Source: Heterotrichella gracilis | Taxonomy: Eukaryota; Sar; Xanthophyceae; Tribonematales; Xanthonemataceae | DNA length: 33,343 nucleotides | Reading direction: 5' to 3' | Assembly (NCBI GenBank): GCA_032358255.1 | Contig: JAULBX010027861.1 | Span: 1 to 33,343, forward strand | In this document: positions 1-32,866 of the stretch, piece by piece | How the letters are laid out: each line of letters starts with the position of its first letter | Numbering within the stretch: the first letter of the stretch is position 1 | Program-made: the position numbers and the translations under genes | The notes under the pieces: generated by a model | Told to the model about the DNA's origin: nothing | Seen by the model: only the letters and a program-made list of their open reading frames with translations | The model's database searches: none

Positions 1-525
1 TTTGGACCCCACTGGCCCCAGAAGCTGGAAAAGTAGTACAGGAACTGGAACAGGTGCACGTAGTCTGCAGGGGGGGGAAGCGGGGGTTATGAGGGTGACA
101 GGGGATGGAAGGGGGACAGCTTGCAAGAAAAGTAGTACAGGAACTGGAACAGGTGCACGTAGCCTGCAGGGGGGGGAAGCGGGGGTTATGGGGGTGAAAG
201 GGGATGAAAGGGGGACAGATTGCAAGAAAAGTAGTACAGGAACTGGAACAGGTGCACGTAGCCTGCAGGGGGGGGAAGCGGGGGTTATGAGGGTGAAAGG
301 GGATGAAAGGGGGACAGCTTGCAAGAAAAGTAATACAGGAACTGGAACAGGTGCACGTAATCTGCAGGGGGAGAAGGAGTGGTGTGTGCAAGGGGGTGAA
401 AGGGAGGGCATGATAAGCAGTACAGGGAAAACTGAAACAGGTGGACATACTCTGCAGGGGGGGGGAAGGCGGGGAGCTTGCAAGAAGAATTGTACAGGAA
501 CTGAACGGGTGCAAGGGGGGGATCA
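1..525 (-). repeat. 99-bp tandem array of exon-9 edge copies in gene A
   Basis: The true exon (start at 64, reading leftwards) is preceded in its intron by copies of its own first ~36 nt, each with a CTGCAG acceptor. Equivalent exon starts lie at 163, 262, 361 and 451, with a decayed remnant near 513. The spacing is 99, 99, 99 and 90 bp. Between the exon-like parts lies a pyrimidine-rich (minus strand) spacer shared among units. Confidence 0.85.
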
Positions 526-3500
526 CAGGGTGGGTCAAAGGGGGATGAGAGGGTGAAATGACGGGGCGTGGGACCATACAGAGTAGATGACCCACCTTAA
601 CATATCACCCAACCACCAAGGCACGTGTTTCACTGGTTCCGCATGATTGTTACACCCTCCCGCATCCCCCTTCACCCACCCACCCACCTGGCGTGACGAG
701 GGTGTTGTACCAACTGCTCAACCCTAAACCTACAACCCTAAACCCTAATCAACAGCACCCCACCCACCCACCTGGTGTGACGAGGGTGTTGTACCAGATG
801 GCGCAGATGAGGAAGAGCACAAACATCCAGAAGAAGCCCATGTTCTGCATGCGGGTGCGCCCCATCCAGGGCTTGTCGATGGTGAATGCGGCAAAGTAGT
901 ACCCCACTAGGGCAACCCCGCTGTTGAGCAGCGTCCACAACATGGTGGTGAACAGGGTGGCGCCTGCAGAAAAGAGATATTTTGAATCAATACCATTTGT
1001 TTTCATTAACATATTACGTGTTGAGGGCTGTCCAAGCCATGGTGGTGAACAGGGTGGCGCCCGGAAACGGGGGGATCAACTGGGGTGGTGGTGGTGGTTT
1101 GGGGGGGAGAGGGGAGGTGCTGGGACAACCAAGAGGCCCAAATTCACCACCCACACACCCTCCCCTAGGGTTTGCATACCTCGAAAAACCCTACCCTAGG
1201 GCTTACCTGGGCCGCTCACAACCTTGATAATCTTGCTCTGGAAGAGCTTGTTTCCGTAGAACGCAAAGTCCCACACGAACCAGCACAGGGAGGTGCCCAC
1301 GATGCGGTGCCAGTAGTGGCGGGCTAGCAGCCTGACTTTGCGCCAGTCCACGTTGGTGGTGATGCCTGCAGGCAAGTGAGCACCGTTAGGGTTTAGGGTT
1401 TAGCTGCCAGGCTCGGCGGGAAAGCACATTCTGCTTGCGGGTGTCCACATTGGTGGTGATGCCTGCAGGTAAGTGAGCACTTTTCAGGGTTTAAAGTTTA
1501 GGATTTAGGTGCCAGTAGTGGCGGGCAAGCAGCCTGGCCTTGCACCAGTCGACCTTGGGAGTGACGCTTGCAGGCAAGTGAGTACTGGTTAGGGTTTAGG
1601 GTTTAAGAGGGTGATGCCTGCACGCGGTGGGGGAGTACCAAGGTGGGAAATGGGCACAATTGCGATGAAATTGATCATGTAAAAGTCCTCCTTGATGAAT
1701 CCACAAAGTAAAGCCTTTCCAGAAGGGCGAGGGAGACGGGACCAGCTGGTTTCAGAGTGTCCAAAATGCACAGAAGGGAAACAAGGGGACGCTCTAAGGC
1801 TCTAAGGCGGAGTAAGAGGGCCACTGCCACTGGCCCGGCAGCGCTGTGACAGTGGCACTTTCTTGCGCCCGGGAAACCGTTATTCACATCCTACCCTGCG
1901 AGGTGAACCTCAACATGCTCCTTCAAGTCCTTCCACTCCTCCCACCGCAGGACCAAAACCCTAAAACCCTGACCAGGTTGCACTCACCGTGCTTCTTGAG
2001 GTCCTTCCTCTCCTCGGACCACACCTTGCTCTCTTGCAGGAAGAAGAATCGGTAGATGAGGGTGCCGGTGAGGAGCACACAGCCAATGGCGTAGGAGAGG
2101 CGCCACACAAGGGTCAGGTCATCTGGGGCCACAGGGAAACGGGTGTCAGACATTAAACCCTAAACCCTAAGAGTGGTGAGCACGCAGCCAATGGCGCAGG
2201 GGATGCGCCACACAAGGGGGAAATCAGCTTGGGGCACAGAAAATGGGGTGTCGATGACAAACCCTAAACCCTAATCAGGGACAAGCACGCAGCCAACCGT
2301 GTCGAAAACAAACCCCAACTACCAGGAACAGGCAATCTTTTAATACAAAGGCACAGAATTACAAAAACAAAATGAATAAAATGGTGTACATGTGGGCCCA
2401 TTCACACTGGGTTGCTCAAGTCCTTATATGGTGGCTAAAGGCTTAGGGTGGAGGGCTTCCACTCACATTGGTTTTAATGTAAAACTTTTAAGCCTTTGCG
2501 TTGCTTCAAGGTTTTAATTCACAACTAGGGTTGCCGCTGCAAAGCTTCGCCACGTCCATTTCAGGCGGTTTAGGGTTTTGGGGCGAGGGTTTCCACTCAC
2601 GTTTGCTGTTGTAGCCCTTCTTGTTGGTCTGTCCAAAGGCGGCCAACAGGATGACCAGCACGAGGGTGTTGACCAGGTTGCCCCAACCCTACGGAGGAGT
2701 AAGACATGAAATCAGGAGGGGAGTACATAAAAGGGGGAAATAAGGTAATAGGATGACCAGCATCAGCGTATTGATGAGATTGCCCCAGTCCTGTGGAAGA
2801 GAATGGACCCAGGTCCAGTGCCCAGAGTGCCCAGTGCCCAGCACCAGGGTGTTGGCACTACCTAAACCCTACTATAGGGTTTCCCCCCCACCTGCATGGA
2901 GAACGTCTCCCCCCTCCAGTATCAAGCAGGGTGCGCAAAAGTAACCAACCCCTACCCTAGGGTTTGCCTCAAGCACTGGCACCAGGGTATTGGCACTACC
3001 TAAACCCTACTCTAGGGCACTTCCCCCAACATGCATGGAAAACGTGAGTACCACCGTCTCCTCCCTCCTATGCCTCAGGTGCTCACACCTAACCACAGCC
3101 TGCCCTAGGGTTTCCCCCTCACCTGCATGGAGAAGGTCAGCACCACCGTCTCCCCCCTCCTGCGCCGCAGGTGCTCACTCGACTCAGCCCTCTCGTTGGC
3201 TGAGGTTGAGGCGATGGGATACTCGCCACCCACACCAAACCCAAAGATGGCTTGCACGATGGTAAACATGGTGAAGAGGGCTGAGTCGGTGGGGCCCGCT
3301 GATGCGGTGATGAGGATGCCACCTGGACAAGGGGAAAAAGGGGGTTTAGGATTTTGTGAGAGGGTTGAGTCGGTGGGTGTTGGTGGAGGCTGTAGTGAGG
3401 ACGCCACCTGGACAAGGGGTGAGAAGTGGTTTAGGGTTCCCGGGAATTTTGGTTTAGGTTTTGTGAACAAGGATGAGTTGGTAGGGTTGGTGAGGCGGTG

Positions 3501-5174
3501 GTGAGGATGCCATCAGGACAAGGGAGGTATAAATAGTATGAAAAGGGGATGTCGCCTATGTCGCCTGTGTGGGAAAGCTTCTCAATAACAAATACCTTTC
3601 CACATGGCTAGCGCAGTGGGCACACAAAACCCTAAATTCTTACCTATCCACATGGCGAGGTCACATACTCTAAACCCTAACTACCCTACCCCGTACCTAT
3701 CCACATGGTGAGGGCGGTCAGCACAGACCCTATGCGGCGCCCAATCCGGTCAGCGAAAAACCCTAGGATGAGCATTCCTCCCATGATGCCTCCCACCTGC
3801 ACGCAAGCACAACGGTTACGGCATTGCGCTTGATAAGTGTGCTGAGTGTGGACTTTTATAGCAGTGGGTGCGTTGCTAGGGTTGCACGGCGCACGCCGGC
3901 ATTGGGCAGGGTTTGCATGTGTACTATGTGAGCCAACACATGGATGATTGGGCAATGCAATGCACCCCGGCATTCTCTGTGGCTGTGGTAGGGCTGCAGT
4001 AGTGGCGGTACAGGTAGGGTATTGTGCACACGTAAACAATGTGTGACCTTCTCATTCTTCTACTAAAAAAGAGTTTTTATTTATTGACCACCCGCACCTG
4101 TGTGTATGTGATGGAGTTGATGAGGCTCTTGGAGCAGGTGATGTGCTTGGCGTGGCACTCGGGGTAGTCCTCGTCCCACAGGGTGCCCAGGTTTCCCACG
4201 CTGAACACGAAGTAGGCTTCGCTAAACATGCCCAGCCCCGGCACGGCGAAGGCTAGGACGAACTGGAAGAACCTGGAGGGTGCAAACCGCCGGTTAGGGT
4301 AAGTAAGAATTTGCTTTCCAGCTTCGAAGCCAGGTTAGCATATCTGGGTATGCCTCACCCCAGTCCTAGAGCCAAAGCTTAACTGACACTGTTTCCAGTC
4401 TGGCAGATGGTGGCCAACCAGCCGGTTAGGTTGTTAGGGTTTACGGTTTAATAAGTGGGAGGACCTGGGCGGTTAGGAGGGTTCAAAACAATGTGTAGGG
4501 TTGATACTGAACTAAGGGTTTAGGGTTGCATTCTTTAGAATTAACCTGAACATGAAACCATGTGCCAGTCATCATCCGTGCTTTTGCCTGCACATGCCCA
4601 GCCCATGCACGGCAAAGTCGCCAACACATGCGATGCACCTTGTAAGTGGGTAAGCCCACTGCAATGGTCAGGGTTTAGGGTCTTTAATGGACTGCACGCA
4701 CAACAATGCAGGGCTTGCCACCTTCCCAGGGCTGGCTGAATTAACCTGTACAAGGGTGACTAATGACCCTCAAAGCTGACATAGCTACTTGCATAAAATT
4801 TTAAAAGGCGACCCAACTGGGTGGTGTCCAAAGAAACGAAATGCGCTGCAAGTTTGCCACATATTTGAACGAAAATACGAAGCAATTAAAGCAACGAAAT
4901 GCGCAGCCCACCCGTTGACTTGCATTTTCGTGTGTCCTATCAACCGTGACCGTATGATGCGCGTCGTCGATTTACTCGGACATTTGACAAGGGGTGTTGC
5001 TATAACTGTCGGCCCTAGCGATGGTTCCGCTAGCGCAGCAGACCATGGTGCCGCCAGGCCATGCCCAGGCCATGGCAGTGACAATGCACACAAGTACAGG
5101 TGATCCGGCGCATACCCATACCTTTTGATCGGGTTTGAGGACACCACGGCGGGGCTGCCGTCGTTGACCCCCAT
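1..5174 (-). CDS. MFS phosphate:H+ symporter-like transporter, gene A (3' end outside window)
   Basis: Multi-pass membrane transporter of the major facilitator superfamily, phosphate:H+ symporter type. Exons on the minus strand: 5174-5122, 4272-4098, 3796-3697, 3322-3123, 2688-2601, 2122-1988, 1365-1207, 963-772 and 64 to beyond base 1. All introns seen are GT-AG and all phases join, giving 388 residues so far. Visible motifs are a TM1 segment GLGMFSEAYFVF, the MFS loop 2-3 signature GFFADRIGRR, GVGGEYPIAST in TM4, CWFVWDFAFYGNKLFQ in TM7, and the start of TM10. The ATG at 5174 was chosen because it opens a 53-nt exon whose phase-2 donor completes an Arg codon with exon 2, just as in paralogue B. 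There is no counterpart of B's 357-nt exon: exon 6 splices directly to the TM7 exon in phase. The introns contain many degenerate copies of exon edges. Substrate is inferred from family resemblance; another phosphorylated or anionic substrate is possible. Confidence 0.85.
688..772 (-). repeat. Exon-8 3' edge and donor duplicated downstream, gene A
   Basis: The last ~26 nt of exon 8 and its GTGGGTGG donor recur 84 bp further along the transcript. The equivalent exon end is 688; the true end is 772. A CCCTAAA-type tract (721-750) lies between the two copies. Confidence 0.8.
964..1060 (-). repeat. Exon-8 5' edge copy, gene A
   Basis: A 97-bp unit upstream of exon 8. It has about 41 nt matching the exon start (to the codons LN) and then an AT-rich spacer ending in a CTTTTCTGCAG acceptor. 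The same unit occurs as a longer array in gene B at 13223-13512. Confidence 0.82.
1366..1625 (-). repeat. Exon-7 5' edge copies, gene A
   Basis: Equivalent exon starts lie at 1462 and 1567, 97 and 105 bp steps from the true start at 1365, with a shorter remnant near 1617. Acceptor-like CTGCAG or TTGCAG motifs are retained, and TTTAGGG-type heptamers separate the units. Confidence 0.8.
2123..2310 (-). repeat. Exon-6 5' half copies, gene A
   Basis: Segments at about 2168-2250 and 2270-2300 repeat the portion of exon 6 encoding the WRLSYAIG region with its upstream intron. They are degenerate, carry indels, and are separated by CCCTAAA tracts. Confidence 0.7.
2740..3060 (-). repeat. Mixed copies of exon-5 start and exon-4 end, gene A
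   Basis: Within intron 4, about 2748-2795 repeats the exon-5 start (NLVNTLV coding part). Near 3020-3060 and 2885-2925 are copies of the exon-4 end (TFSMQ plus donor). This single intron therefore holds duplications from both of its flanking exons. Confidence 0.7.
3323..3530 (-). repeat. Exon-4 5' edge copies, gene A
   Basis: The exon-4 start motif (GTGGCATCCTCA on the minus strand) recurs in degraded form, with equivalent starts at 3407 and about 3513. These are 85 and roughly 106 bp steps from the true start at 3322. Confidence 0.72.
4540..4660 (-). repeat. Relic of exon-2 start in intron 1, gene A
   Basis: The minus strand contains a decayed copy of the exon-2 segment encoding AFAVPGLGMF, inside the 849-nt intron 4273-5121. 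Nothing else recognisable is seen in that intron. Confidence 0.6.
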
Positions 5175-8170: not shown

Positions 8171-11100
8171 ATGGTGGCGTCCGGGGCGATGGATGTTGGC
8201 GAGTGGTCCCCCAACCCGGTCATCAGGTACGCAGAGTCCCTGGCTTCGCCCTAAACCCTAAACCTGCCATCAGGGACGCAGGGACCATTGCATCGCCCCG
8301 CTGAGCATGCACTATGTGTTTTGAGCGTGCGAGGTGGCAGGCGTTTCTTTGGCCCATGCATTGCCCCTGAGCTCGCACATCACCTCGGCGGGGAGCCTGC
8401 CTGCTGATACGACAACCTATTCCTGGACCGGAAATGTCCTCCAGACATTTGACGTAAACCCTAGACAGGGTTTTGTAACCTCCGGGGTGTGCCAATGGGG
8501 TATCACCTTTGCCAGGTCTGAGCAGGGCATGTTCGCAAAGCCTGTCTTTTATTCCTAGCCGAAACCCCAAACCCTAACCAGTGGTCTGAACCCTCCAGGT
8601 TCTTCCAATGGTTCATCAGCTTTGCCGTGCCGGGGCTGGGCATGTTCAGCGAAGCCTATTTCGTGTTCAGCGTGGGAAACTTGGGGGCGCTGTGGGACGA
8701 GGCCTACCCCGAGTGCCACAAGGAATACACCACATGCTCAAAGAGCCTCATCAATTCAGTGGAGTACACACAGGTGCGGGGGGGTTGGGGCATGCCCGTG
8801 GCTAACTAGGACTCTTGGGACTTGTTGGAATGAGCACAAGGTGGTGTCCTGGGCCTCCACCCCAAACCCAAAAACCCTGGGCTGTGGGACGAAGCGTACC
8901 CCAAATGCCACGTCAAAACACCACTTGCTCAAAGAACCCAGTAGAGTACACACAGGTGCGGGGTTTGGAGGATGCTGGTGGGATGCTTGGTTAACTAGGG
9001 TTTTTAGGGTTCAGGGTACTTAGCTGTAGCCCATGGCACACACCCCTTCCCAGACCCAACTCCCCTTCCAACGCCAAGGATAATAAGACGGTAACAGTCC
9101 TGTTATTATCGTATTTTCCTTGCCATTTCCCACTGACAGGTGTGTGCTGCTCTGGTTGCAGGTTGGGGGCATCATTCTGGGGATGATTGTGCTAGGGTTT
9201 TTCGCTGACCGGCTGGGGCGGCGGCTAGGGTCTGTGCTTACAGCCCTGGCCATGTGGATAGGTAAGGGTTTAGGGCTTTAGGGTTTGAGATCACCGCATC
9301 CTCGTCACCGCCTCCGCCACAGCATACGAGCATACTCGTACCTTTGACAAACCCCAATTTCAGAACATAAGGTCACTATTACGGTATCCCCCTTGTACAG
9401 GTGCCATCCTCATTGCTGCCTCCACCGGCCCCACCACTGAGGCCCTCTTCACAAAAAGCCTCTTTCCAAAAACCCTGAACCACTTCCCTCCCCTTGCCCA
9501 GGTGGCATCCTCATCACCGCCTCCACCGGCCCCACCACGGAAGCCCTTTTCACCATGTTCATGATTGTGCAAGCCATCTTTGGGTTTGGTGTGGGTGGCG
9601 AGTACCCCATCGCCTCAACCTCGGCCAGCGAGCGGGCTGAGTCGAGTGAATCGCTGAAGAAGAGGAGGGGGGAGACGGTGGTGCTCACCTTCTCCATGCA
9701 GGTGGGTGGAGAACCCTAGGGCAGGGTTTAGGTAGTAACGCTCACCTTCTCCATGCGGCTGGGGGAGAAACCCTAGGGGAGGGTTTAGGTAGTGCCAGCA
9801 CCCTGTGGTGGTGCCGGTGCGTTTGGGAGGCTTGCCCCTTCAACCCCTGTTGTTAGGGTTATAACCCCCAAAACCCCACTCATTCCATTTACAGTATTCC
9901 CCTTCCTGATCGCAAGTTTCACCTCCCCTCTGCAGGGTTGGTGCAACGTGGTCAACACCCTAGTGCTGGTCATCCTGCATTTGATATGCCGTAAGCTTGT
10001 TCCCCTTTTTGCTCACCTCCTGACATCGTGTTTCATCCCCCCTGCAGGGCTGGGGCAACCTGGTCAACACCCTAGTGCTGGTGCTGCTGCTGGGAGCACT
10101 GGGGCAGACAGCGGGGCCAGGCCAGAACGACCAAAGTGAGCGTTAGGGTCTAGGGCTTAGGGTCAAAGGCCAGCCTGAATGACCGAAATGCGACATTTGC
10201 TTTCGGACTTAGGGTCCAATTTGAATGGCCGATGTGAGTCGGTAGGGTTTAGGGTTCAGTGCCAGCCTGAATGACAATGACATTCTGTAAGCAGTCCAGA
10301 TGTTTGTAATGTACAGTGAATGCAGTCATGTACAGTTAAACCACCGCCACCCACATGCACCACATGCATGTTACGACACCATGTGACCATACTCCGCATG
10401 ATGTGCATCTACCAGGTGTGCAGGCCCTCGCATGGCGCTTCACCTAAGCGACTGGCCGCGTCCTAATAAGCTGCAGCACCACAAACCCTCCTCCACCACC
10501 ACCACCAACAACACGCACACATACACAATCGCACATGCCTCAAGACCCCCCCCCCCCCTTCCCCACCTCACCCACCCTGTTGCATCCCCTCAGGCGTGCT
10601 GGCCCTCGCGTGGCGCTCCTCCTACGCCATTGGCTGCATCTTCATCAGCTGCATGCTGTTCTACCGCTTCTTCTTCCTGGAGGAGAGCGAGGTGTGGTTG
10701 AAGAACAGGAAGGAAACGGCGCGGGCAGGTGGGTGCGGAGGGGTGTACATGGTGTCTGGTGTGATTGGGCAAGAGTAATAAGTTAATAGGAGTGCCAGGG
10801 AGTGCTAAGATATTACCGTATTACCCTTGGATTGGGGGGGCGGGTGTGTGGTGCGATTGAGAGGGTTGGAAGGGGGTCGCGATTGGCCTGGTCTCCGTGG
10901 CTGCATCACATCAGGAGGGGGACTGCACCAGGTGGGTGTGGATAGGGGTGGGGCCAGTGGATGGAGCACGTGGAGTGCTTGGACCCAACAGGACCCCTGG
11001 TGGAGGGCTGCATTATGGGACCCTGCGCCATGAATGCACGCATTTCGCCCATATCCAGCTGCTGGTGTGCTCCATTGCGCACCCTGTGCTGGGGCCTCAA

Positions 11101-20100: not shown

Positions 20101-20348
20101 GCACCCTGCCACCACACTGCGTTCTGCAGCCACCAGTGCATATGTTTCTGTCCATATCCTATGAGGGTTACAGTACTAGCAGTGCAGTGGCAGGTCTGTG
20201 GTAGTACCTACTCTGAAGAGATTGTCCAGCACATGGGCCCAAGCTATGTCTATTTCTAGCGCTGGTTGTGTGAACCTTGGAATGCGTACAGCCTTGGATG
20301 TAGTATATCCTGCTATACCTTGCTGCATCAAGGTCCCTTGTTGACCTC
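17132..20348. other. Spacer between gene B and the DUF1295 gene
   Basis: Just after the gene B stop, a ~50-bp motif (GGGAAACCCTAA ... GAGGAGGGATG) is imperfectly repeated to about 17215. Apart from the coiled-coil ORF at 18914-19423, I see no coding region, RNA gene or mobile-element termini. Part of the gene B 3' UTR and the DUF1295 promoter must lie here. Confidence 0.5.
18914..19423 (-). CDS. Hypothetical small coiled-coil protein, intronless
   Basis: A single uninterrupted 169-codon ORF, unlike every other gene in the window. A basic N-terminus (MGRPSKQSKAAKENI) leads into a helical region. From about residue 66 there are seven consecutive Leu-led heptads with Asn usually at the fifth place (LVSANQA, LESANHE, LQAANEG, LVAVNQE, LLAANQG, LFAAIQQ, LQAANYH), typical of a parallel coiled coil or zipper. 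A Gln-rich stretch follows, and the C-terminus ends in LLTGAI. I do not recognise the family. The basic start followed by a zipper could suit a DNA-binding or transposon-encoded accessory protein, but no partner gene or terminal repeats were found. The opposite strand is also open over this stretch (18821-19504), which lowers certainty. The minus strand is preferred because its heptad pattern is regular. Confidence 0.42.
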   Translation of the reverse strand: MGRPSKQSKAAKENIIKTHGSVKAWTASLQEAKRVHKDKDAASAVLAEVHQLRRRVAELQETNEQLVSANQALESANHELQAANEGLVAVNQELLAANQGLFAAIQQLQAANYHQTAQLSVAFQVNQHQQSVIAQQLSQIQQPTFSSSDVQLELEATGFTLTDLLTGAI

Positions 20349-23300
20349 ATGCTGCATAGTGGTAACCTAGGGTTTCCTTGCCTTGGATCCCCAGGACCCT
20401 TCAAACCCCAGTCGCTGTTGCTCGGTGCCTCCTCTACCGCCCACCCTGCTACCCTCTCCCTGTGGCATAGCAAGGCAACCGCCCTTGCTGCACAGCTGAA
20501 AGCTGCCTCGAGGTAGGGTTCTAGGGGTTCAGGGTTTTACTTCGAGAGTTTTGCTAAGCATGTAGGGGTATATAAGGGTTGTCCGGCGCTGTACTTTATG
20601 CCTTCTGGGTTGGAAGCTCCCATGTGCTCCACAACCCCATCCTAGGTTTCCCCGCAAGGGGGTTAAGCCTCTATGTAGGCTAGCACCCTACAAAACCCTT
20701 TCCCAGGTTCTCAAGGGTGCCGTGCCCTTGATGTTTCTGTTCCCGTGCGTTCCAAAACCCTGAGCTAGGTTCTCATGCGCTCCCCATGCCCTATGGGTTC
20801 TCACGCACGCCGAAACTCCATTCTAGGATCTTGACCCGCCCCCGGCGACGCCCTACCCGCCCCCGTGCCCGCAAGCGCTTCAACCAGCCCCGGGCACTGG
20901 GTACGCCCTCCTCGTTTGAAGGAATGGAAACCAAAAATGCCACCCTGCTTGGGGCTCTCATCGTGGATTTGGCTATCCAGTGGGTACGTGCATACTCAGC
21001 CTAACCCTGAAGAGAGACGCTACAAACAACACAGTGCTGAAGCGTTGTGTTTGGTTCCTTCAGTAGGTATATGGGCACATGCACAATTGGATGCGTTCTA
21101 CATCCCTACCCAAAACCCTACTCCAGGGAGAAAACCCTATAAATGCCACCCTGCTTAGTGCGTACGCATATTATTTGCACAATACCGTACACAAACTGCG
21201 ATGCATGGCCAGTCGCAACATTGCTAACCTGACATGACCTCTATGCCTTTATTGTAAGAACAAGACTGGATTAATGATGTTGCTGTGTCTTTTTCGCATG
21301 TATACATGCAAGCTGTAGGGGGTCTGCATACCTGTGAGTGGCGGGGGCAGGGGTGCAGGCGTGGCAAGCGAGCGAGTGCAGTGACCGTAGCTCTATCCCT
21401 GTGAACCCTAAATCTTAAACCCTGAACTCTCGTAGGGCGGCTTTGTGCTCGCATACCTCTTCAAAACCGAAAAGTTCTTTGATTTCCTGGGCACTGGCGC
21501 GTTCTTTGCGCTTGCGATCGGATCCCTGACCTACGCTGCCATCTACACTGCTCGCCAGGTAGGGCCTAAACCCTAAGCAAACCCTAATTATGCAACCCTG
21601 CGCATGTCTGACTCGGCTGCCTGTACAAGGCACGCCAGATAGGCCAATCGCACATGAAAAGAAATGTTAAACCGTCAAAATTCACATCATGCCAGGTCAG
21701 TGCATGTGGCTCTGGTTGCGCTTGAACTCCTAATATTGCCCTAAATGATAAGTCATGATTGGGTCTTGACCTAGTGTTCCTGGGTCTGGAAACCCTACCA
21801 CAGTCCTTTACAACCCTAGCAAACCCTGGCCCAGCCCTGCAGATTGCGGCGACATCTCTTGTGGCATGCGCCACGCCCCGATCATGCTCTACACATTCTG
21901 GCGCCCAATCCCCGCCCAATCCCCTTACAAAACCCGGTTCCTACCCCGTAGATTGTGGCGACAACCCTCGTCGGCCTGTGGGCCCTGCGGTTGGGTGGCT
22001 ACCTGGTCCTCCGGGTGCTGAAGACTGGCAAGGATGCTCGATTCGACGAGATCAAGAACAACCTGCCCCTGTTCTTCTTCACCTGGACCATGCAGGCTGT
22101 GTGGGTGTGGGTGGTGAGCCTGCCGGTGGTCATACTGAATGCAAGCGTGGGGGGTCCTGGTGAGTGGCACTACGTTGGCAATTGATTTTTAGTTGCAAAT
22201 CTTGCAAAAATGGAATCAGAGGGCTTACAATGAGTACATTTGATGAGTTTGAAGAGTATAATCCCTGGTCTTCTTTACTTGGACCATGCAGGCTGTGTGG
22301 GTGTGGGTGGTAAGCCTGCCGGTGGTCATCCTGAATGCAAGCGTGGGGGGTCCTCGTGAGTGCGCTTTTTGGACGTAGCTGTTGCATATAGATGTCCTCA
22401 TGGCATTGCATATCTGTGCGTATATATGCATGTGTTCTCAACACCTTACAATGTGCCACACTCCTACCCACCATCCCCACACCCACCAAGGAGGGGCTTC
22501 AAACAGGACCTACACCCTTTCCCTTTGTACCGTACCAAACACCCCATGGCGCCCCACCCTGAATCCTGACAAAAGCCTGTACAAATCCTGTCGTAGGGTT
22601 TGGCCGCTGGAGCGACATCCTGGGCATCACCCTGTGGGGTATCGGCTGGCTCATCGAGGCCACCGCAGATGCGCAGAAATGGACATTTAGGCAGGACCCC
22701 GCCAACAAGGGGCGCTTCATCACCACCGGACTCTGGAAGTACAGCCGATACCCCAACTACTGCGGGGAGATGCTGCTGTGGTGGGGCATGTTTTCCCTGT
22801 GCAGCGCTGCGTTTGACGGGTGGGAGTGGGTGGCCATCGCCAGCCCCCTGACCACGATGGCCATCATCGCAGGTGGGGAGAACCCTAGAGAACCCTATAT
22901 TAGGGTTTGGGATGTGTGACAAATCCTCAGGGCAGTAAAGTTTGCAACGGTTTGAGTCTAGGGGCCTTGATATGTGTTGGGGTTGGGGCAAAGTCCCAGA
23001 TGATCATCAACAAATGCAGTTGCCTTGTATCGACCTGGGAAATCTTACGATGCATACTACCTTCATGATGGGCCCCTAGTCATCAGTTTCTGGACCACGG
23101 CCTTTAATCCCATTTTCTGGTGCCAGAAACGCTCCCACACACATACCACCATGGGCCGCTATATTTACACCTGTGGTAAACTTAGCAAACTGCACACGAA
23201 CTGAAACCCTTATGTAGGGTTGAGCGGCGTCCACACCCAGGAGCGCCAGGCCCAGGAGTCTGGCTGCATGCACTGAAAACCCTAGCCACAAACCCTAAGC

Positions 23301-23453
23301 AAACAAAACCCTTGCGTAGGGTTGAGCGGCATCCCCATCCAGGAGCGCCAGGCCCAGGAGCGGTGGGGTGGGGAGGCGGGATACCAGGAGTACAGGAGGA
23401 GGACAAACCTGCTGCTGCCGCTGCCATTTAGGCTACCAGGGGGCATACTTTGA
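20349..23453 (+). CDS. DUF1295 / steroid 5-alpha-reductase-like membrane protein, possibly plastid-targeted
   Basis: Exons: 20349-20512, 20827-20983, 21436-21558, 21952-22159, 22597-22872, 23320-23453; 1062 nt, 353 residues, GT-AG introns with matching phases. Several membrane helices lead into the diagnostic block at residues 256-275, which runs GRFITTGLWKYSRYPNYCGE and is followed by LLWWGM. This is the nucleotide-binding-like C-terminal signature of DUF1295 proteins, relatives of steroid 5-alpha reductases and isoprenylcysteine methyltransferases. Plant homologues are annotated only as 3-oxo-5-alpha-steroid 4-dehydrogenase-like, and I do not assign a substrate. The ATG at 20349 begins a Ser/Ala/Leu-rich, acid-poor leader followed by an Arg/Pro-rich stretch, which looks like a chloroplast transit peptide. 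Translation could instead begin at Met88 (20924), just before the first conserved helix. The first two exons are therefore less certain than the last four. Degenerate copies of edges of exons 2, 3, 4 and 6 lie in the neighbouring introns and 3' flank. Confidence 0.84.
20590..20826 (+). repeat. ~60-bp ladder of acceptor copies before exon 2 of the DUF1295 gene
   Basis: YAG-GKTTYTC-like junctions occur at 20646, 20707 and 20769, with the true exon start at 20827. Steps are 61, 62 and 58 bp. Shared words include CCAAAACCC/ACAACCCCAT before the AG and GTTCTCA after it. Confidence 0.6.
21600..21890 (+). repeat. Exon-3 end copy and exon-4 start copy, DUF1295 gene intron 3
   Basis: About 21607-21640 repeats the end of exon 3 (equivalent end 21638, 80 bp after 21558). 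About 21836-21885 repeats the start of exon 4 with a CTGCAG acceptor (equivalent start 21843, 109 bp before 21952). Confidence 0.7.
22262..22361 (+). repeat. Long, well-preserved copy of exon-4 3' end, DUF1295 gene
   Basis: Roughly 90 nt match the end of exon 4 plus its GTGAGTG donor with only a few differences. The copy ends at 22355, 196 bp after the true end at 22159. It still reads FFTWTMQAV and VVILNASV without a stop, so it appears recent or constrained. Confidence 0.85.
23205..23265 (+). repeat. Exon-6 5' edge copy, DUF1295 gene
   Basis: A GTAG acceptor is followed by about 45 nt nearly identical to the exon-6 start (encoding LSGV.TQERQAQE). Equivalent start 23218 is 102 bp upstream of 23320. 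Confidence 0.82.
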
Positions 23454-25460
23454 GTGCGCCTCTGGGGATGGCATGGTCGTATTGTTGGGGACAGCATACT
23501 GGGCCGCTGGGGATTGTGTGTGGCACCTGGGAGGCGGGAGAAAGGTCTACAGGACGAGGAGAAACCTGCTGCTGCTGCTAAACCCTAGGGCGTTGGGACC
23601 GCATACTTGGTAGCATGCTGGCTGTGCTGGGATGCGAGGGGGCACACAGGAGATGCTGGTCGCCTGTATTGTTTCATGGGCCGGTTTCCTTACTGGCCTG
23701 TCAAGTGGGCTATGTGGAGGTGCATTTCCGCCTCATTTGCGCGTCTAGCATTGTTTTGTCTGCCAGCGTTCTGCTGTGGTAGGGTGCCTGGCCATCAGTG
23801 CCTTGCACCGTTGCATTTGCCAGGTTGATTTTGCCAGGTGCAGGCTGTTAAGAGGAGTCAGCTTGGTGATTACCACAATGTGTATTTATTACAGATCAAT
23901 CAGTGTATGCTGTAACGGCTTTGCTGAGCTGTATCAACCTGAAAGATGTAAACACCTGACCAGGATAGCACGTTATTCACTCACACTACAGTCAAGCAAG
24001 ACTGTACATGTGCTGCGATCAGCACTGACGGCAAGTCAGACGCTGGAAATACAATGGCGACATTTGTGCAAACTCTTGGATACTACAGCGTTTATTTGCT
24101 GCACAAAGTTGCCAACAACTCAGGCTGCAGTTCACGTCAGACGCTTTCAAGCAAACAGAAAGGCAGGCTGGGGTACTGCCCGGCAATTGCTGTACCTCGC
24201 AAATGTGAGGGTAGCACACGGTTACTGTAGTCAAACTTTGGGCTGCACTTGCAACCCGTTGGTGACCAACTGTCCTACAGAAACTGCCTCGAAATTATTT
24301 ATTAGTATTATACAATTGTGTGGGACATCTCAAAACCACAATCGCTCACTCCCCACTCACTAGCCCGATATGAGCTGTCACATTGAGGAAAGATCTTCAC
24401 CTTGTAGCTTGGAGCCATCGTGCAAAGCTTCCTTCAGGCTCGTTGCCACTGTAGATAGATACATGCCATGGGTGGACCTATGCTGCCATGGCACTCCTCA
24501 GCAGCTTGCGCCTGCACGCCATTTGTTCAAGAGTCAAGTCCATGTACTCAAGCAACATAATGGCCACTGGCTCAGCAGGCACAAGTTGAACACCACGCCA
24601 CCTCTGCGTTTGGGTTGCTCACAATGCATTTTAGTTATCCCTAATGCGCATGTTGTTTGGCGTACAGCGCTATGTAATTTTGCTTGATGCCACATTATCT
24701 ATACAGCTGCTTAAAGTTTGCTGAAGGCACGCTTTGGAGTTTAGGGTTTACGGTGCAGGTAAAGAGAGCACTGGGTGTGGCATACTATGGACACAGTATG
24801 GATATAGGAATTAATGGGCAGTGCCAAGTCAACCCTATTATCTATGGCCCACAATGTGAGCGTACGCAGACATTGGATGGAAACCTCACTCCACTTATTT
24901 CCATTTATTTCTTTGACTAACAGCTACAACAGCATTCTTACTGAAGTGCACTCACCCGGCGTCACTGCTGCTGTCATGCGGGTTGCCCACGCCCTGCTCC
25001 CAGCCCAGGTGCTTGCCATTGCCTGCACCAGCAAAAAAACTAAATTCAATTAAACAGTTTATAGGTTTTGGGTTCAAAAGGTAAAGGGTTTTATGTCTTC
25101 AGGGTGCATGCCATTGCCTGCAACAACAGACCACACGCGTCAGCACACGCCAGGTTCGACCTGACGGAGTTTAGGGTTTAGGGTTTGGGCTTTTACGCCA
25201 GGGGCTGGGGAGAAATGGTTGAGAGGTCATTACAGCACCAATTGAAGGCATGCTCAAATATGACGCCAGCCAAACACAGGGAAATTGACAAAAAAGGAGT
25301 ACAGGCCACAGCACATAACAGGCCTGGATGCTACAAGGGACACAGAGGGTGTGATTTGGTTATCATGGTGCGGTTTTTACCGCATGTAAGGCACCAGCCA
25401 TCACCCACGTCATTGGGATGTTGGCATGCATGTTTTGACTGCCACAGAGATTGGCATGCG
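23454..25460. other. Spacer between convergent genes
   Basis: At 23525-23605 lies a degraded copy of the 3' part of the DUF1295 last exon, now in its 3' flank. The rest shows isolated TTTAGGG heptamers near 24738 and 25170 and no recognisable gene. A TGTAA word on the minus strand near 25234-25230 could serve as a poly(A) signal of the Ser-rich gene if the organism uses that green-algal signal. Confidence 0.45.
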
Positions 25461-28400
25461 CTAAACCCCACCTCCGTTGCTGTTGCCCTTGCCGCCGCCA
25501 TTGCTGTTGCCCTTGCCTCCCCCGTTGCTGTTCCCGTGGCCGCCCCCGTTGCTGTTCCCACTGGAGGAGCTCTTGCCCCCAGAAGAAGAGGAGCTCTTAC
25601 CACCAGAGCTGCTGCTGCTGCCGCTGCTCTTGCCACCGCTGGACGAGGTGGAGGAGCCAGAGGAGGAGGACTTGCCCCCAGAGCTGCTGCTGGTGCTACT
25701 GCTCTTGCCCCCCGAGGAGGAGGTGGATGACGTCCCAGAGGAGGAGCTCTTACCACCTGCGGCATGCATATGGAGGGTTTAGGGTTTAGGGCAATGCCCG
25801 GAAAAATGGAATATAATAAAATGCTTGGGTAGTCGTTACCCAACACATGTGGTTCAGGGTTTGGTGTGTTGGGTTTTAAGGTTTAGGGTTTAGGGTTTAG
25901 GGTAACGGATCGTAATGCCACAGTAGCAACAGTGAAAGACAAGCCTTTGCCCTTCGGACAGGGGTGAGGCAAAAATGCCGACCTGGATTCAATAGTGCTA
26001 GGATGCTGTCAACCTAGGAATCATTACATGTTCACACAGCTTTCCCTCAAGGACGCTTAGCTGGTACGAAATCCCATACCTCCATTACCGGTGTTACTAA
26101 ACAGGTACATGCTAAGGGACTGGGTGCGTAATAAGTAGGTGTCTGTGCAAGCACAAGGTACCCAACATTACCTACTGCTTTTTCAAAGGCGAAATAACCC
26201 CTAAGCCTAAGGCATATAAGCTCAGGCTTAATAGCCCCAAACCCGGCGCTAATCTCTATACTTGTTTGATGCTTAAAAACTGGGTAAATACGCGCAGCGT
26301 AACGCGCAGCGAAGGTTGGGCCTTGTAATTGGGCAAGGTCCGAGCAGAGAGTAGGGTTTAGGGTTTAGGGTTTAGGGTGTTCAGGGTTCAGGAGGGAACA
26401 TGTGACCTCGCACCTCAGCTAGGGAGGAGGTGCTTCCAGTGTTGCTGGTTTAAGGTTTAGGGTTTATGCTTAGGGTTAAGGGTTGCAGTCCCCACCTGAT
26501 GAGGAGGAGGTGCTCGAAGTTCCAGATGATGAGGTGCTCGAAGTGCCAGACGAGGAGCTCTTACCACCTGCACCAGGAATGGACAGTCACTGGGGGTATG
26601 TACTTATCACCCAAAACACGCAATGATTGTTCCCAAACTGTGCCGTTTGCCATGCATGGTCCCACTGGTGGCACTGCTATAGCTATTTATAGCAGTTGCC
26701 ATGGCATGAAATTTCATTTATATTGGTTGCCACGGCATGAAATGGTTCATTTATAGATGGTAACCCTGTAAACAAAGCTGATTTAACTACTAAATATGAT
26801 CATCAATGATTATACCAATCAGCAATGCGCGCATGAGTACGTTGTAGATTACGATATTGGCAGCAGCATAAAGCATGATAACTGTATGTGCGTGGGTATA
26901 CATCCGGTAAGTAATCATGCAACTTATTTCCACGGAGGTAGAATGGCTGTAATGACAAATACGCATGGCGAGGAGCACAGGTGATCAAATAAACCAATGC
27001 GTAACAATATAATAATTGCGCCTGGGAGGGCGGCCTAATACCCTAGGGTTACATGGGAGGGATGGGCTGCAACTCCCCACCTGAGGATGATGAGCTGCCG
27101 CTGGTGCTGCTGGTCCCCGAGGATGAGGAGCTGCCAGAGCTCTTGCCACCTGGCAAATGGAGAGTCCAGTTGATAAATGGATTGTATAGGTATACCACAA
27201 CACATGACATTGTATCATGGTGCATCAGCGTGCATATTCCAACGGTAGGCAAGGTCATATATAACCCTAGGTAACATGAGAAGACCCTAAACCCTAAAAC
27301 CTAAACCCTTAAAGGGTTGCAACTCTGTACCTGAGGATGATGAGCTCCCGCTGGTGCTGCTGGTCCCCGAAGAGGATGAGCTGCCAGAGCTCTTACCACC
27401 TGCGGGATGAACAGTCAGGTGATACCTATGCACCAGGACACGCATGACACTGTATCTTGGTGCATCAGCGTGCAAATTTTATCGGTATCAGGCATGACTA
27501 GCCCTGCCACATGCATGGTGATACGCTTTTACTCTGCCCTACTGGTTCCTACTACCCTCCAACTTGTCGTCTAGGTACCATTGAAAAAGGACCTGATTAC
27601 AGCCTCTGGCACAAATAATGAAGTGAAAATGAAAAGCTACAACTGCACATGGCAGGGCGGCGGCAGGGCTACAGTGACTAGGTAATTAGGCCGGGTTATA
27701 TGTAACCCAAGTTACAAGGATAGCCCTAAGCCGTGAACCTAAAAAGGTTCAAGTCTGTACCTGAGGATGATGAGCTCCCGCTGGTGCTGCTGGTCCCTGA
27801 AGATGAGGAGCTGCCAGAGCTCTTGCCACCTGCGGAATGGACAGTCCAATATTGATTATTACCCTCCGCACAACACATGACATCGCATCATGGTGCACCA
27901 CCAGGCATTCGTTATGGTATCGGGCATAACTAGGTCTGCCACACGCATGGTGACATGTATTTACCCCGCCCTATTGGTACCTACTACCCTCCAACTTGTC
28001 TGAGTACGATTGAAAAAGTGATTAGTTACAGCCCCTGGGCACAGGTAACGAAGTAAAAATGGATAACTAAGATTGCACATGGCAGCTCTAGGAAGCCAGA
28101 CCTAATTATATGTAACCAAGTTACAAAGGAACCCTAAACCCTAAACCCTAGACCCTCACAAGGGTGGCAACTCCCACCTGAGGAGGATGAGCTGCCGCTG
28201 GTGCTGCTGGATCCCGAAGTGGATGAGCTGCCACTCTTGCCACCTGGCAGTGTGGAATCGACAGTCAGTTGATAACGTTTTCTACCCAGGACACTGGACA
28301 TCCATATCATGGTGCACCACCAGGCATATTGTATCGGTATCAAGCATACCTAGCGGGGCCATGCTAGCTAGCTAGGCCGGGTTATGTCACCTGTGTTACA

Positions 28401-31218
28401 TAAAAACCCTACACCCTACACCCTAAGATTGCACCATGCTGCACCTTTTCACATGAGGGGGAGGAGCTTTCCCTGGAGCTGCTGTTTCAGTGTTTGGGGT
28501 CTAGGGTCTATGGTTTATAGTTTAGGGTTAAGGGTTGCGCAACTCTTTACCTGAGGAGGATGAGCTGCCGCTGGTGCTGCTGGATCCCGACGATGACGAG
28601 CTGCCACTCTTGCCACCTGCACAGGCACCGAGTTAACATCGATAACTAGAAGGATGGCAACTGCCTGTACACAGAACTGCTCATGGCTCAAAACCTTAAA
28701 AACCCTAAACCCTTAACTACGTTGCCACTGAACTGCACACGGCGCAACCCTAAACCCCAGACCCTAAACTACCTTGCCACTGGACTGCGAGTGGCAAGGG
28801 TCACAGGTACCGAGTTATTGGGGAAGCATTTTTTAAACTACGCATGGCTCCCCTTGGCTAACCCGGTTTCAATTATTTGTCTACCCACGTTTGACAACAT
28901 AAAACCACTTGTAAATGGCATGGCAAGGAGCAAGGGGCAAGGTGGCTACCCTATGCGTAGCTAGCCAGTAGGTAAGGGCTTGGATACCAGGGTGACCCTA
29001 ATTAGGGTATGTTTGTTTGTCAACTCCCCAGGCAAGGTGTCTACACATGTGTAGGTACCTAGTCAGTAGGTACGGGCTTGGATACCAGGGCGACTCTAAT
29101 AAGTGTATGCCGGTGATCCTAATTAGGGTATGTTTTTTCAACTCCACACCTGATGATGAGGAGCTACCGCTGGTTGATGACGATCCAGAGGATGAGGTGG
29201 AGGAGGAGGTGCCTCCAGAGCTAGTCAGGCCAAGGAGCTTCCTGGCAGCCAATGACCTGCGGTACAAACAATTATATATATAAGAAACGGTGCAAAACTT
29301 GCATTCTGCAGAGTGGCAGGTAGCCTTGACATGCCGCATAATGTTCAAAACCATACTGCACCGTGACTCACGGAGTGTTAGGTTTAGCCCTAACTCTAAA
29401 ACCCTGAACCCTGAACGATCCTTTAGCTGAATGCACAGCAACGCAGCAGACGTCAGGCTCAATACCTTGGGGGGTGCAGGGTTGCTGCTGCAAATGCAAA
29501 CACTCCTGCTCATCAAAAAGTGCATGCATCTTGGTTGGCTTAAACCCTAAACCCTAATGCCTGAACCCTTATGCCTAAACCCTAAACCAGCAAGTGCAAA
29601 TGCAAGCAAGCACTCGAGAAGTGTACGCATCTTGGTTGGCCTAACCCTACACCGTCAACACTAAACCCTTAACTCAACACTGCACTTACTTGAGCTCATC
29701 ATCGTCAGCGCTGATGTCCACCACACTGCAACAAGGAGGGAATCCGTGGTCAGCAGTGGTATACATTCTACATTGATAACATTGCAATTGTAGTGGAAAT
29801 GAGCTGATCACTTGAAATGAAAATGATCACTTCAGATTGATCCCCGAGTGCATGCTGACAGCATGGCGATAGACGCCACGTGGGTTTAAGAAATTTTAAC
29901 GTGGGTTTAAGGGTTTTAAGAGTTTTAAGGGTCTTAAGGGTCTTAAGGCTTTAGGGTTGAGCATAGGGTTTGGAAAGCAAGCGTGCAGCGGTGGGTAGCC
30001 TGCATGGATCACTAGACACCTAGCCAACTGCGCATGCAGCCAGCTGTTACCCATATTGTGGTCATTACAGCCCTACAGTAGGGTCTTCACACAAGTCCTA
30101 GTAGACACAGCACTACAAGGAAGCACAGCAATACTGCAGCAGCAGGGAATCGTGGGGACGAAATGCAATTGTGATGGAACATTGATCTAAGCTCACCGCT
30201 AACCGTGAAACCCTAAAGGGTGGAGGCTGAACAGGGCCCTGCAGGGCCCATTCCTGCAGGGCCCATTCCTACCTGACTGGCAAGCTGAAATCTAAACCCT
30301 AAACCCCTAAATCTAATAATAAAGGGTCCTACCTGAACTGGCAAGCCAGTGTACTCAACCCCAGGGCATGTTGGGACAAGTGCAATGCAAGGTTAACCCT
30401 ACACTTTTAAGCCCTAGACCCTTAACCTTGAAGTCGAGGGTGGAGATTCCTACCTGATAGGCAGGCCGGGGTGCAGACCCAGCAGCGCACGCTGGCTCTG
30501 GATCTCTCCCAGGGCCTCAACAAGATCCTGCATGAGAGCAACCAGCAGGGGTCAGCAAACAGGACATGAGCAGGGAATGGCCATATTAGGGTTTAGGGTT
30601 ACAACAGGGAATAGCCATTTGCAACCGTTGCACAATGCACCTTGCATGTTGAATTGCATCAGGGAAGTGAACCCGGCAGCAGGATGGGACTGTTCAGGGT
30701 TTGGGGTTTTAGGGTTCAGGGTTGAGGATTTAGGGACTGTTCAGCAACGTCAAGAGACGCCAGCAGCATGATGCTGGCGCCAAGTGGGAGGGCATGTGAC
30801 ATGGGCAACGTGGGTTTGGGGTTTAGGGTTTAGGGTTTAGAACTGGCGCCAAGGGGGAGGGCATGTGACATGGGCAGCGTGGGTTCAAGACCACTTGCCA
30901 ATACCTCATGGACAGCAATTGGCTGCCAAACCCCATGCAAAGGGCACAGCATGCACTGAAAGCATAGCAACTGTGCTCTGCCATTAGAGAGCTCACCGCA
31001 TGACAAAAAGTTTACAGAAACATCCAAGGGCCAATAAAAATGATGCGGCTAAAACAGTCTCACCACTGGTAGGTGGTGCACATGGTGCTTACCCTCCTGG
31101 ATGGGTTTAGGGTTTTAGAGCCTACCTTGCGCTCATGATCTACCTCCTGGATGATCTCTGCAGAGACCGCCAGGCACAGCAGCACCACCGCTGCCACAAA
31201 GAGCCACTTCCTAGCCAT
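25461..31218 (-). CDS. Secreted Ser/Gly/Lys-rich repeat protein with serially duplicated exons
   Basis: Exons on the minus strand: 31218-31126, 30527-30454, 29725-29690, 29256-29150, 28616-28551, 28243-28178, 27829-27761, 27399-27331, 27149-27081, 26567-26496, 25756-25461. They give 1017 nt, 338 residues plus TAG, with consistent phases and GT-AG introns. Residues 1-20 are a classic signal peptide (MARK, a hydrophobic core, then AVSA before EI). A short unique region containing SVVDISADDDEL follows. The remaining two thirds is Ser/Gly/Thr with regularly spaced Lys. Exons 5-11 each open with GGK(S), and exons 5-10 are symmetric phase 1-1 units of 66, 66, 69, 69, 69 and 72 nt. The last exon carries six GGKSS motifs and then four GNSNGGG heptads ending at the stop. 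No enzymatic domain is seen. A structural cell-wall, mucilage or extracellular-matrix role is an inference from composition and secretion. The small exons 2 and 3 rest on splice sites, phase and edge copies, so they are less sure. Confidence 0.76.
25881..25903 (+). repeat. Interstitial telomere-type repeat, three TTTAGGG units
   Basis: Perfect tandem heptamers in the last intron of the Ser-rich gene, preceded by a degenerate unit. Confidence 0.9.
26352..26378 (+). repeat. Interstitial telomere-type repeat, about four units
   Basis: Three perfect TTTAGGG units preceded by a partial one, in the same intron as the previous tract, ~120 bp upstream of the exon at 26496-26567. Confidence 0.9.
26395..26455 (-). 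repeat. Relic of a Ser-rich exon
   Basis: On the minus strand this reads like the Ser/Thr-coding part of the neighbouring exon 26567-26496 (GGAAGCACCTCCTCC words). It is disrupted and lacks a clean acceptor with GGK codons, so it is treated as a decayed exon copy. Confidence 0.55.
27000..28400 (-). repeat. Tandem intron-exon units of the Ser-rich gene
   Basis: Exons at 28243-28178, 27829-27761, 27399-27331 and 27149-27081 end 417, 430 and 250 bp apart. The intervening introns share blocks: CATGGTGCACCACCAGGCAT-like, CTACTACCCTCCAACTTGTC, TGAAAAAG with TTACAGCC, and TATGTAAC with AAGTTACA. The duplicated unit is therefore exon plus intron. Confidence 0.85.
29540..29650 (-). repeat. Intronic duplication in the Ser-rich gene
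   Basis: The word pair GCAAATGCAA ... GCATCTTGGTTGGC at about 29490-29540 recurs at about 29596-29640, with CCCTAAACCC tracts between the copies. Confidence 0.75.
30265..30460 (-). repeat. Donor-edge copies of exon 2, Ser-rich gene
   Basis: The plus-strand motif TCCTACCTGA..GGCA, which is the reverse of the exon-2 end and donor, occurs at the true end 30454 and again at equivalents 30333 and 30273. A 15-bp direct repeat (GCAGGGCCCATTCCT) at 30240-30270 is separate. Confidence 0.7.
30774..30884 (+). repeat. Direct repeat flanking a telomere-type tract
   Basis: Two nearly identical ~40-bp copies beginning TGGCGCCAAG lie at 30775 and 30844, 69 bp apart. Two perfect TTTAGGG units plus partial units (30812-30840) fill the space between them. 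Confidence 0.9.
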
Positions 31219-32520: not shown

Positions 32521-32866
32521 CTGTTGAAATCGCGGTGCGTTCAAAGGCAGGGCCTTGACTTAGACCTGCATGCAGTGTTGCAAACACATCCACGTCCGTA
32601 CAGCGTACGCGGGTTTACCAGGGCCTGGGCCAGGTTCATTCCACTTTCGGGGTAAGCATGGGCATGCAAGCTTTGACACGACAAACCGTGTGCTTGTTGA
32701 AATCACGGTGTGTTTAAAGCCAGGGTCTTGACTTTGACCAGCATGCAGTGTTGCAACCTCCTCCACGTCGTACAGCGTACGACTGCTTACCCAGGTCTGG
32801 ACCAGGTTCATTCCACTTTCGGTTTAAGCATGGGCATGCAACCCTTTAACGAGGCACCGTGTGCGT
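32521..32866 (+). repeat. ~173-bp tandem duplication
   Basis: Copies start at GTTGAAATC (32523 and 32696). Shared blocks are CAGCATGCAGTGTTGCAA-like, GTACAGCGTACG and CCAGGTTCATTCCACTTTCG. Sequence identity is high with small indels. There is no exon here, so tandem duplication is not limited to genes. Confidence 0.88.

Follow-up and report, generated by a model that had tools for sequence, protein, structure and literature searches.

We analysed contig C534, a window of 33,343 bases that was taken whole from an assembly of 68.5 Mb in 903 contigs, in which the edges of many predicted exons recur, splice site included, as copies inside the adjoining introns. Genes were predicted with a purpose-written exon-chaining program trained on about 0.3 Mb of the same genome (the 304-kb sample), comprising the window, 25 random 10-kb stretches less two that were excluded, and 12 chaperonin stretches chosen solely for encoding TCP1/Cpn60, blind to repeats. 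The excluded stretches are L006, which is all N, and L001, a likely though not proven bacterial contaminant with a GC content of 35% and no telomere motif. The 894-kb contig C1 that holds L001 has no (TTTAGGG)2 match listed and may be a bacterial contaminant or associate. Predicted splice sites follow AG/GTGAG-like donor and TGCAG/G-like acceptor consensus sequences, the median exon of the analysed loci measures 155 nt, and the output includes a 529-residue chaperonin. A predicted CCT-epsilon protein is 82% identical to that of [Myrmecia] bisecta, the best by identity among the best 120 hits, and mostly 70–80% identical to those of other green algae and plants; no identical protein occurs among the 120 hits listed, of which the two top-scoring are long Trichinella entries at 56–58%. 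Judged by this similarity, the source genome is that of a green alga.

Genes and exon-edge copies of the window

Four genes are predicted in the window:

1–5174, minus strand: G1, running off the window start; paralog of G2 by gene model and homology; predicted exons 13–64, 772–963, 1207–1365, 1988–2122, 2601–2688, 3123–3322, 3697–3796, 4098–4272 and 5122–5174
8171–17099, plus strand: G2, paralog of G1 by gene model and homology; predicted exons include 8599–8773, 9162–9261, 9502–9701, 10048–10135, 10594–10728, 12871–13029, 13513–13704, 14247–14390, 15292–15411, 15932–16139 and 16597–17099
12140–12466, plus strand: an extra G2 exon without counterpart in the G1 model
20827–23453, plus strand: G3, with a DUF1295/steroid-reductase-like domain (PF06966, E = 1e-29) in exon 22599–22871
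24956–31210, minus strand: G4, with a low-complexity product and repeated 66–69-nt exons

The gene finder fused G2 and G3, which we split by paralogy and domain content. The sequence-only reading that drew attention to the copies had called the four genes unrelated. G1 and G2 are in fact inverted paralogs that share seven exons in the same order and of equal length (175, 100, 200, 88, 135, 159 and 192 nt), 69–86% identical. Three G2 exons searched singly against Pfam gave no match; the product may be transporter-like.

Copies lie on the intron side of the exon edges listed below, with the step from edge to copy in nucleotides; the last entry is an event away from exons:

127–513, minus strand: five acceptor-side copies of exon edge 64 (steps 99, 198, 297, 387 and 455); the first three and the exon edge itself form a 99-bp tandem array, 28–371
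688–712, minus strand: donor-side copy of exon edge 772 (step 84); the full event, 675–796, has two 38-bp copies (675–712 and 759–796) around filler with a telomere-like run, 720–748
1019–1060, minus strand: acceptor-side copy of exon edge 963 (step 97)
1435–1462 and 1508–1567, minus strand: two acceptor-side copies of exon edge 1365 (steps 97 and 202); a telomeric run, 1386–1403, sits between the edge and its first copy
2178–2218, minus strand: acceptor-side copy of exon edge 2122 (step 105); a telomeric run, 2154–2170, is flanked by the copies
3359–3407 and 3463–3512, minus strand: two acceptor-side copies of exon edge 3322 (steps 85 and 191)
8881–8955, plus strand: donor-side copy of exon edge 8773 (step 182)
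9401–9452, plus strand: acceptor-side copy of exon edge 9502 (step 101)
9936–9978, plus strand: acceptor-side copy of exon edge 10048 (step 112)
12770–12794, plus strand: acceptor-side copy of exon edge 12871 (step 101)
13223–13458, plus strand: three acceptor-side copies (13223, 13320 and 13417) of exon edge 13513
13790–13823, plus strand: donor-side copy of exon edge 13704 (step 119), with telomeric heptamers in the filler
14079–14104 and 14150–14186, plus strand: two acceptor-side copies of exon edge 14247 (steps 177 and 97)
15745–15800, plus strand: acceptor-side copy of exon edge 15932 (step 187)
22266–22354, plus strand: donor-side copy of exon edge 22159 (step 196), about 93 nt of exon
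23218–23258, plus strand: acceptor-side copy of exon edge 23320 (step 102)
30774–30885: the cleanest single event, a 43-bp duplication (30774–30816 and 30843–30885) with two mismatches and 26 nt of almost pure (TTTAGGG)n between the copies, at least 240 nt from any predicted exon

All 12 copy pairs named in the sequence-only reading beat the best of 300 two-base-block shuffles, and its step sizes are correct; 11 pairs are clear (Smith–Waterman scores of 23.5–55 versus shuffle maxima of 10.5–13) and one, 21843/21952, is weak (13.5 versus 11.0). Self-BLAST of the window together with 20 random stretches of 10 kb (among them one that is all N, and L001, the source of one pair) yields 142 direct-repeat pairs no more than 2 kb apart, 59 of them in the window, versus none in a three-base-block shuffle, and their steps peak at 80–120. 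The excess of exon-edge matches over controls that the same reading proposed as a check is present: an intronic copy accompanies 67 of 590 adjacent 40-nt exon edges versus 6 of 590 exon middles (Fisher p = 7.5e-15). These edge tests, which exclude low-score exons and introns above 1500 or 2000 nt, cover 295 introns with 37 donor-side matches to the last 40 nt of the upstream exon and 30 acceptor-side matches to the first 40 nt of the downstream exon; the donor-side and acceptor-side controls give 4 and 2 for exon middles and 0 and 2 for far edges, with at most 0.7 expected from other introns. No reverse-complement exon-edge match occurs in the 295 introns. The match rate is highest at the border itself (33 of 245 and 29 of 252 windows), declines across 60–80 nt of exon and stands at about 2% in intron interiors.

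The excess of edge over middle matches recurs in every part of the sample: 23 versus 0 in the window (27 introns), 22 versus 4 in the first random stretches (156 introns), 10 versus 1 in later random stretches (46) and 12 versus 1 in the chaperonin loci (66). With 90-nt queries, at least one copy is found in 76 of 325 introns, namely 20 of 31 in the window and 56 of 294 outside it, so the earlier statement that most or nearly every exon is affected holds within the window and fails elsewhere. These rates are undercounts, because about 9 of 15 neighbouring-exon pairs look like copies that the gene finder miscalled as exons. Copies accepted as extra exons include L030 1201–1254, L034 2645–2694 and 2764–2799, and L011 7680–7763 (sense-strand coordinates), and L007, L012, L015 and L022 also have copies called as exons. 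The copy rate per locus varies strongly, from 6 of 8 introns in L036 to 0 of 12 in L012, L019 and L022. An assembly artefact is unlikely, as 87 of 116 copies differ from their exon by at least 6% and the arrays hold several diverged units. What the first reading described as a genome-wide process thus withstands these tests: same-orientation duplications, mostly spaced by about 100 bp, cross exon–intron borders, lengthen introns and leave decoy splice sites. Similar duplications are also found away from exons.

Anatomy, age and telomeric filler of the duplications

A catalogue of 84 block–filler–block pairs gives blocks of 33–86 bp (10th–90th percentile; median 50) and fillers of 25–130 nt (median 60). 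The catalogue demands a gap of 8–150 nt and is therefore silent on the share of events without filler; from it, and from the listing of intron–intron repeat pairs, which includes copy–copy pairs within the same families, pairs of low complexity or rich in telomere motifs were removed. In the 14 donor-side copies whose 25 exon nucleotides are at least 92% identical, the intron side agrees for some 5 nt on average and is close to background by 10–15 nt, with mean identity falling from 0.87 (nucleotides 1–5) to 0.61 (6–10) and 0.44 (11–15). Beyond 6 nt the intron flank does not exceed the 95th percentile for unrelated introns in 8 of these 14 and in 4 of 11 acceptor-side near-identical copies. 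Among 24 high-identity copies, homology on the intron side is no longer than 25 nt in 15 and reaches at least 39 nt in the other 9, several of which are arrays; tandem arrays that include the filler occupy 28–371 in the window, L013 7155–7357 and L007 1499–2258. Whether copies abut is mixed, with an unrelated intron side in 12 of 25 near-identical copies, a related one in 13, and abutting units in arrays such as 28–371. The split in intron-side homology therefore indicates a mixture of plain tandem duplications with insertions that lie between duplicated blocks.

To judge from how they differ from their exons, the copies act as neutral decoys. Across 116 copies, differences fall at the three codon positions in the ratio 161:132:258 and 33 of 44 indels are of a single base, as would be expected if a copy drifts freely while its exon accepts no changes but synonymous ones. 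GT is retained in 31 of 41 border-aligned donor-side copies and AG in 27 of 38 acceptor-side copies. The paralogs G1 and G2, compared through the exons paired by equal length (a set that takes in neither the first exons, which measure 53 and 56 nt, nor the additional exon of G2 or the truncated one of G1), both carry copies at many shared borders. At 190 sites that differ between their exons, copies hold the allele of their own gene in 138 cases, the other allele in 31 and a third base in 21. Most copies therefore arose separately in each gene, after the gene duplication, and inheritance from before the split is rejected for most of them.

The filler is enriched in the telomere repeat of the organism itself. 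TTTAGGG is the terminal repeat of the assembly, forming long arrays in telomere orientation no more than 10 nt from the start of six contigs, and (TTTAGGG)2 has 5629 matches genome-wide, terminal arrays included, versus 5 for the reversed motif. Heptamers cover 0.35% of exons, 1.1% of sequence outside predicted genes and 2.9% of introns, where permuted heptamers cover 0.6%. In the fillers of 53 copies with steps of up to 150, coverage rises to 23.5% on the donor side (22 of 28 fillers) and 12.1% on the acceptor side (10 of 25), whereas introns lacking a copy on the side in question reach 5.6% and 1.9% at matched positions (p = 2e-4 for either side by permutation); Fisher odds ratios for the association of copy and telomere motif are 13.7 and 7.6. 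Likewise, 38 of the 84 catalogue fillers contain a telomere heptamer, versus 347 of 2520 (13.8%) random intron windows of equal length.

The association also holds when telomeric runs are taken as the starting point. The 304-kb sample contains 102 telomeric runs of at least 11 nt, 88 of them within predicted introns, and with telomere-like sequence masked 39 of the 102 are flanked by direct repeats, versus 217 of 4000 control positions; none of the 102 is flanked by inverted repeats. By location, direct repeats flank 20 of the 43 runs that lie no more than 60 nt from an exon (control 9.3%) and 13 of the 45 intronic runs at greater distance (control 7.7%); for runs inside exons the count is 1 of 2, and for those not in a predicted gene it is 5 of 12 (control 1.6%). 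When runs are clustered, direct repeats flank 22 of 60 outside the window versus 134 of 2500 control positions (p = 8e-13), and 13 of 29 in the window versus 349 of 2500. Irrespective of duplication, 44% of the 88 intronic runs lie within 40 nt of an exon versus 18% of random intron positions, and the same holds outside the window (26 of 54 versus 353 of 2000). Introns of all analysed loci show a wider strand trend, with GGG commoner in the 5′ half (2105 versus 737) and CCC in the 3′ half (2535 versus 937); TTTAGGG and CCCTAAA share this trend, and just upstream of acceptors the G-strand repeat is almost missing.

Duplications are concentrated at exon borders. The ratio of border to intron-only pairs is 2.2–2.5, versus 0.31–0.41 in a simulation of uniform insertion with twofold decay for intron–intron pairs, so that events are 5–8 times more frequent at borders than the simple uniform model predicts; the factor is rough, because filtering of real pairs for complexity and telomere motifs may have removed proportionally more of the intronic pairs. 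As a full account of this anchoring, passive erosion is insufficient in a simple simulation and runs counter to the unrelated intron flanks of near-identical copies. Exon-internal events are presumably removed by selection, which leaves the excess over intron interiors unexplained.

Proposed break repair and competing origins

On balance, and by a modest preference, we read the duplications as scars of break repair rather than intron births, left by staggered breaks, fill-in and the addition of telomeric or other filler. A break near an exon–intron border would arise from two nicks about 30–85 nt apart on opposite strands, leaving long overhangs, and filling in both ends would duplicate the overhang. 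Some 25–130 nt of filler would be inserted before the ends are joined; it would often be telomeric (TTTAGGG)n, either synthesised by telomerase or captured as telomeric DNA, and the product would read exon edge and splice site, filler, exon edge and splice site. The copy adjoining the rest of the exon would stay in use, while the other would become an intronic decoy and drift neutrally; some events may have proceeded without filler, and some units may later have been amplified by ordinary tandem duplication. Fill-in duplication and telomeric insertion combined would explain the block, the filler, the single orientation and the occurrence away from borders. The border concentration itself may stem from transcription, from chromatin or from selection against exon-internal events. 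Breakage between nucleosomes is one possibility, by analogy with what PMC9860276 argues for introner insertion. More speculatively, and with clearly lower confidence, telomerase together with fill-in by the CST complex and Pol alpha may be a routine repair of intragenic breaks in this algal lineage, with breaks favouring exon–intron borders through transcription, splicing or chromatin.

Several observations weigh against the break-repair reading. The telomere heptamer is absent from 46 of 84 fillers, and telomeric sequence is not confined to the filler: the flank beyond the copy is also telomere-rich (12.7% donor, 5.4% acceptor), and the outer 40 nt are 4.4–5.6% telomeric versus 10.2% in fillers. 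The polarity expected of 3′-end extension by telomerase is weak (26 of 41, p = 0.059) and confounded by splicing constraints. Truly intergenic evidence is thin, because four of the five flanked runs outside predicted genes lie within 85 nt of a predicted exon, and the uniform null for border enrichment uses lengths of our own choosing. On the intron side, 13 of 25 near-identical copies exceed the 95th control percentile, and the 9 of 24 high-identity copies with long intron homology are what plain tandem duplications or arrays would give. Finally, the copies at 13223–13513 match their exon at 41–42 of 42 nt, and the AT-rich fillers of 37–38 nt between them align weakly and are nearly saturated with change, with weak homology in two of three pairs (p = 0.001 and 0.009) and p = 0.39 in the third. 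Near-identical exon parts beside nearly saturated fillers are unexplained by simple neutral ageing; possible causes are repeated conversion by the exon, fillers replaced independently of one another, or constraint.

Some of these points lend weight to another origin, which we consider possible though rather doubtful: a plain tandem duplication, about 100 bp long and spanning the border, made by slippage or by fill-in with no filler. The intronic half would then have turned over very fast, by low-complexity expansion, indels and local conversion of the exon part, and the exon half alone would remain recognisable. The families that are true tandem arrays with filler included, the copies with extended intron homology, and the weakly homologous fillers beside an unchanged exon part at 13223–13513 all fit such an origin. 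Copies with exon parts 94–98% identical nevertheless have intron flanks at background level (L028 step 113, window steps 84 and 196, and L013 step 109, with scores of 6–7.5 versus a 95th percentile of 8.5), fillers are telomere-enriched over matched introns, and duplications also surround 13 of the 45 telomeric runs that lie in introns over 60 nt from an exon. The tandem duplication proposed in the sequence-only reading is thus true of some copies and arrays, and falls short as a sole account given the near-identical copies whose intron side is unrelated. Functional copies, kept by selection as decoy or alternative splice sites, seem distinctly improbable. Retention of GT or AG in 58 of 79 border-aligned copies and the near-perfect exon parts next to scrambled fillers at 13223–13513 would suit such a role, yet the codon-position pattern and frame-shifting indels match neutral drift, and the own-allele counts of G1 and G2 indicate copies mostly younger than the gene duplication and formed separately. 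Codon positions and indels lead us to reject coding or selected copies as a general rule, with 13223–13513 still odd.

A further origin, to which the sequence-only reading had likened the copies, is intron gain through duplication of AGGT-containing exon segments (the Rogers/Hellsten model). Such gain would leave the end of the upstream exon copied at the intron's 3′ end, or the start of the downstream exon copied at its 5′ end. The copied blocks do include splice sites and a few copies are in frame and could act as exons, and PMC4974935 describes a border-crossing duplication in potato that made an intron. The copies here are nevertheless misplaced for this model: the far end of the intron is reached by just 4 of 116, and these belong to L007 and L030, where copies are miscalled as exons. 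The introns that G1 and G2 share also appear to pre-date the copies, because the two genes share seven equal-length exons in order and most copies are younger than the gene duplication, and events in intron interiors have the same anatomy; the likeness therefore fails, and we hold this origin to be very unlikely. Least credible of all is a filler carried by an introner-like mobile element. Duplication-flanked insertions are common in the genes of this green alga, and introners are known from algae (PMC9860276). The sample, however, contains no family of fillers or introns, and 112 of 129 filler matches elsewhere are telomeric; among 325 introns of the 304-kb sample no cross-locus pair shares 60% of the shorter intron, and 7 pairs share short stretches. 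The duplications, moreover, have a median of 50 bp versus the 3–9 bp that PMC9860276 reports for introners.

Known systems, implications and other repeats

Each ingredient of the proposed repair is known from other systems. Nergadze et al. 2007 (PMC2246262) describe interstitial telomeric sequences inserted during double-strand break repair in primates and rodents. The genome analysed here resembles these cases in carrying the organism's own telomere repeat, TTTAGGG, at internal sites, and some of the published insertions likewise have other added sequence or a target duplication. The published duplications accompany 6 of 130 insertions in rodents and 4 of 25 in primates, whereas here direct repeats flank 22 of 60 telomeric clusters outside the window, the duplications are longer, with the median of 50 bp, and events concentrate at exon borders. 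Breaks with complementary overhangs are described in PMC8355091 and PMC5730883 as giving small tandem duplications at CRISPR-induced breaks, through fill-in by CST-guided Pol alpha–primase and end joining. The likeness lies in short, direct duplications of one orientation, which those sources explain by filling of both overhangs before joining; ours are likewise short and direct, none being inverted in the 295 introns or around the 102 telomeric runs. They differ from what those sources describe in the unrelated, often telomeric filler between the copies of about half of near-identical pairs.

Two comparisons concern introns themselves. Rogers and Bendich 2025 (PMC11782384) interpret direct repeats close to the splice sites of introns as traces of insertion and break repair, a likeness to the repeats at intron–exon borders found here; their repeats of 4–30 bp, however, compare the two borders of one intron, whereas the 30–85-bp blocks here copy an exon edge into its own adjacent intron. 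The potato duplication of PMC4974935 spans an intron–exon border as ours do, and differs in having created a new intron, whereas the copies here are decoys inside existing introns. The density of events, the long duplications and their border concentration appear new. Searches of an open-access library, which lacks most subscription journals, turned up no account in which telomeric filler separates long duplications at exon borders.

The origin of intron sequence and the effect of break repair on genes are open questions that have mostly been studied through rare single cases. With about a fifth of introns outside the window carrying a recognisable scar, at all stages of decay and replicated in paralogs, this genome would offer a statistical record of the process, showing how long the duplications are, where the filler comes from, at what point with respect to splice sites it is inserted and how old the events are. 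If telomerase and fill-in by CST and Pol alpha do serve as routine repair of intragenic breaks, telomeric repair would be a leading genome-wide source of intron sequence and decoy splice sites, with in-frame copies occasionally seeding exons or introns; a crude extrapolation from the catalogue would put the number of recognisable events, of various ages, in the order of ten thousand. Testable predictions follow for telomerase and end-joining mutants of green algae. In-frame copies are possible seeds of new exons or introns, or else annotation traps, and the fact that the gene finder took some of them for exons here is a warning for annotation.

Two further repeats of the window stand apart from the exon-edge copies. 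In G4, at 27081–28616 on the minus strand, the 66–69-nt exons are repeated along with their introns, an exon-level amplification. Past the last predicted gene, a 173-bp tandem repeat with units about 85% identical occupies 32522–32841.

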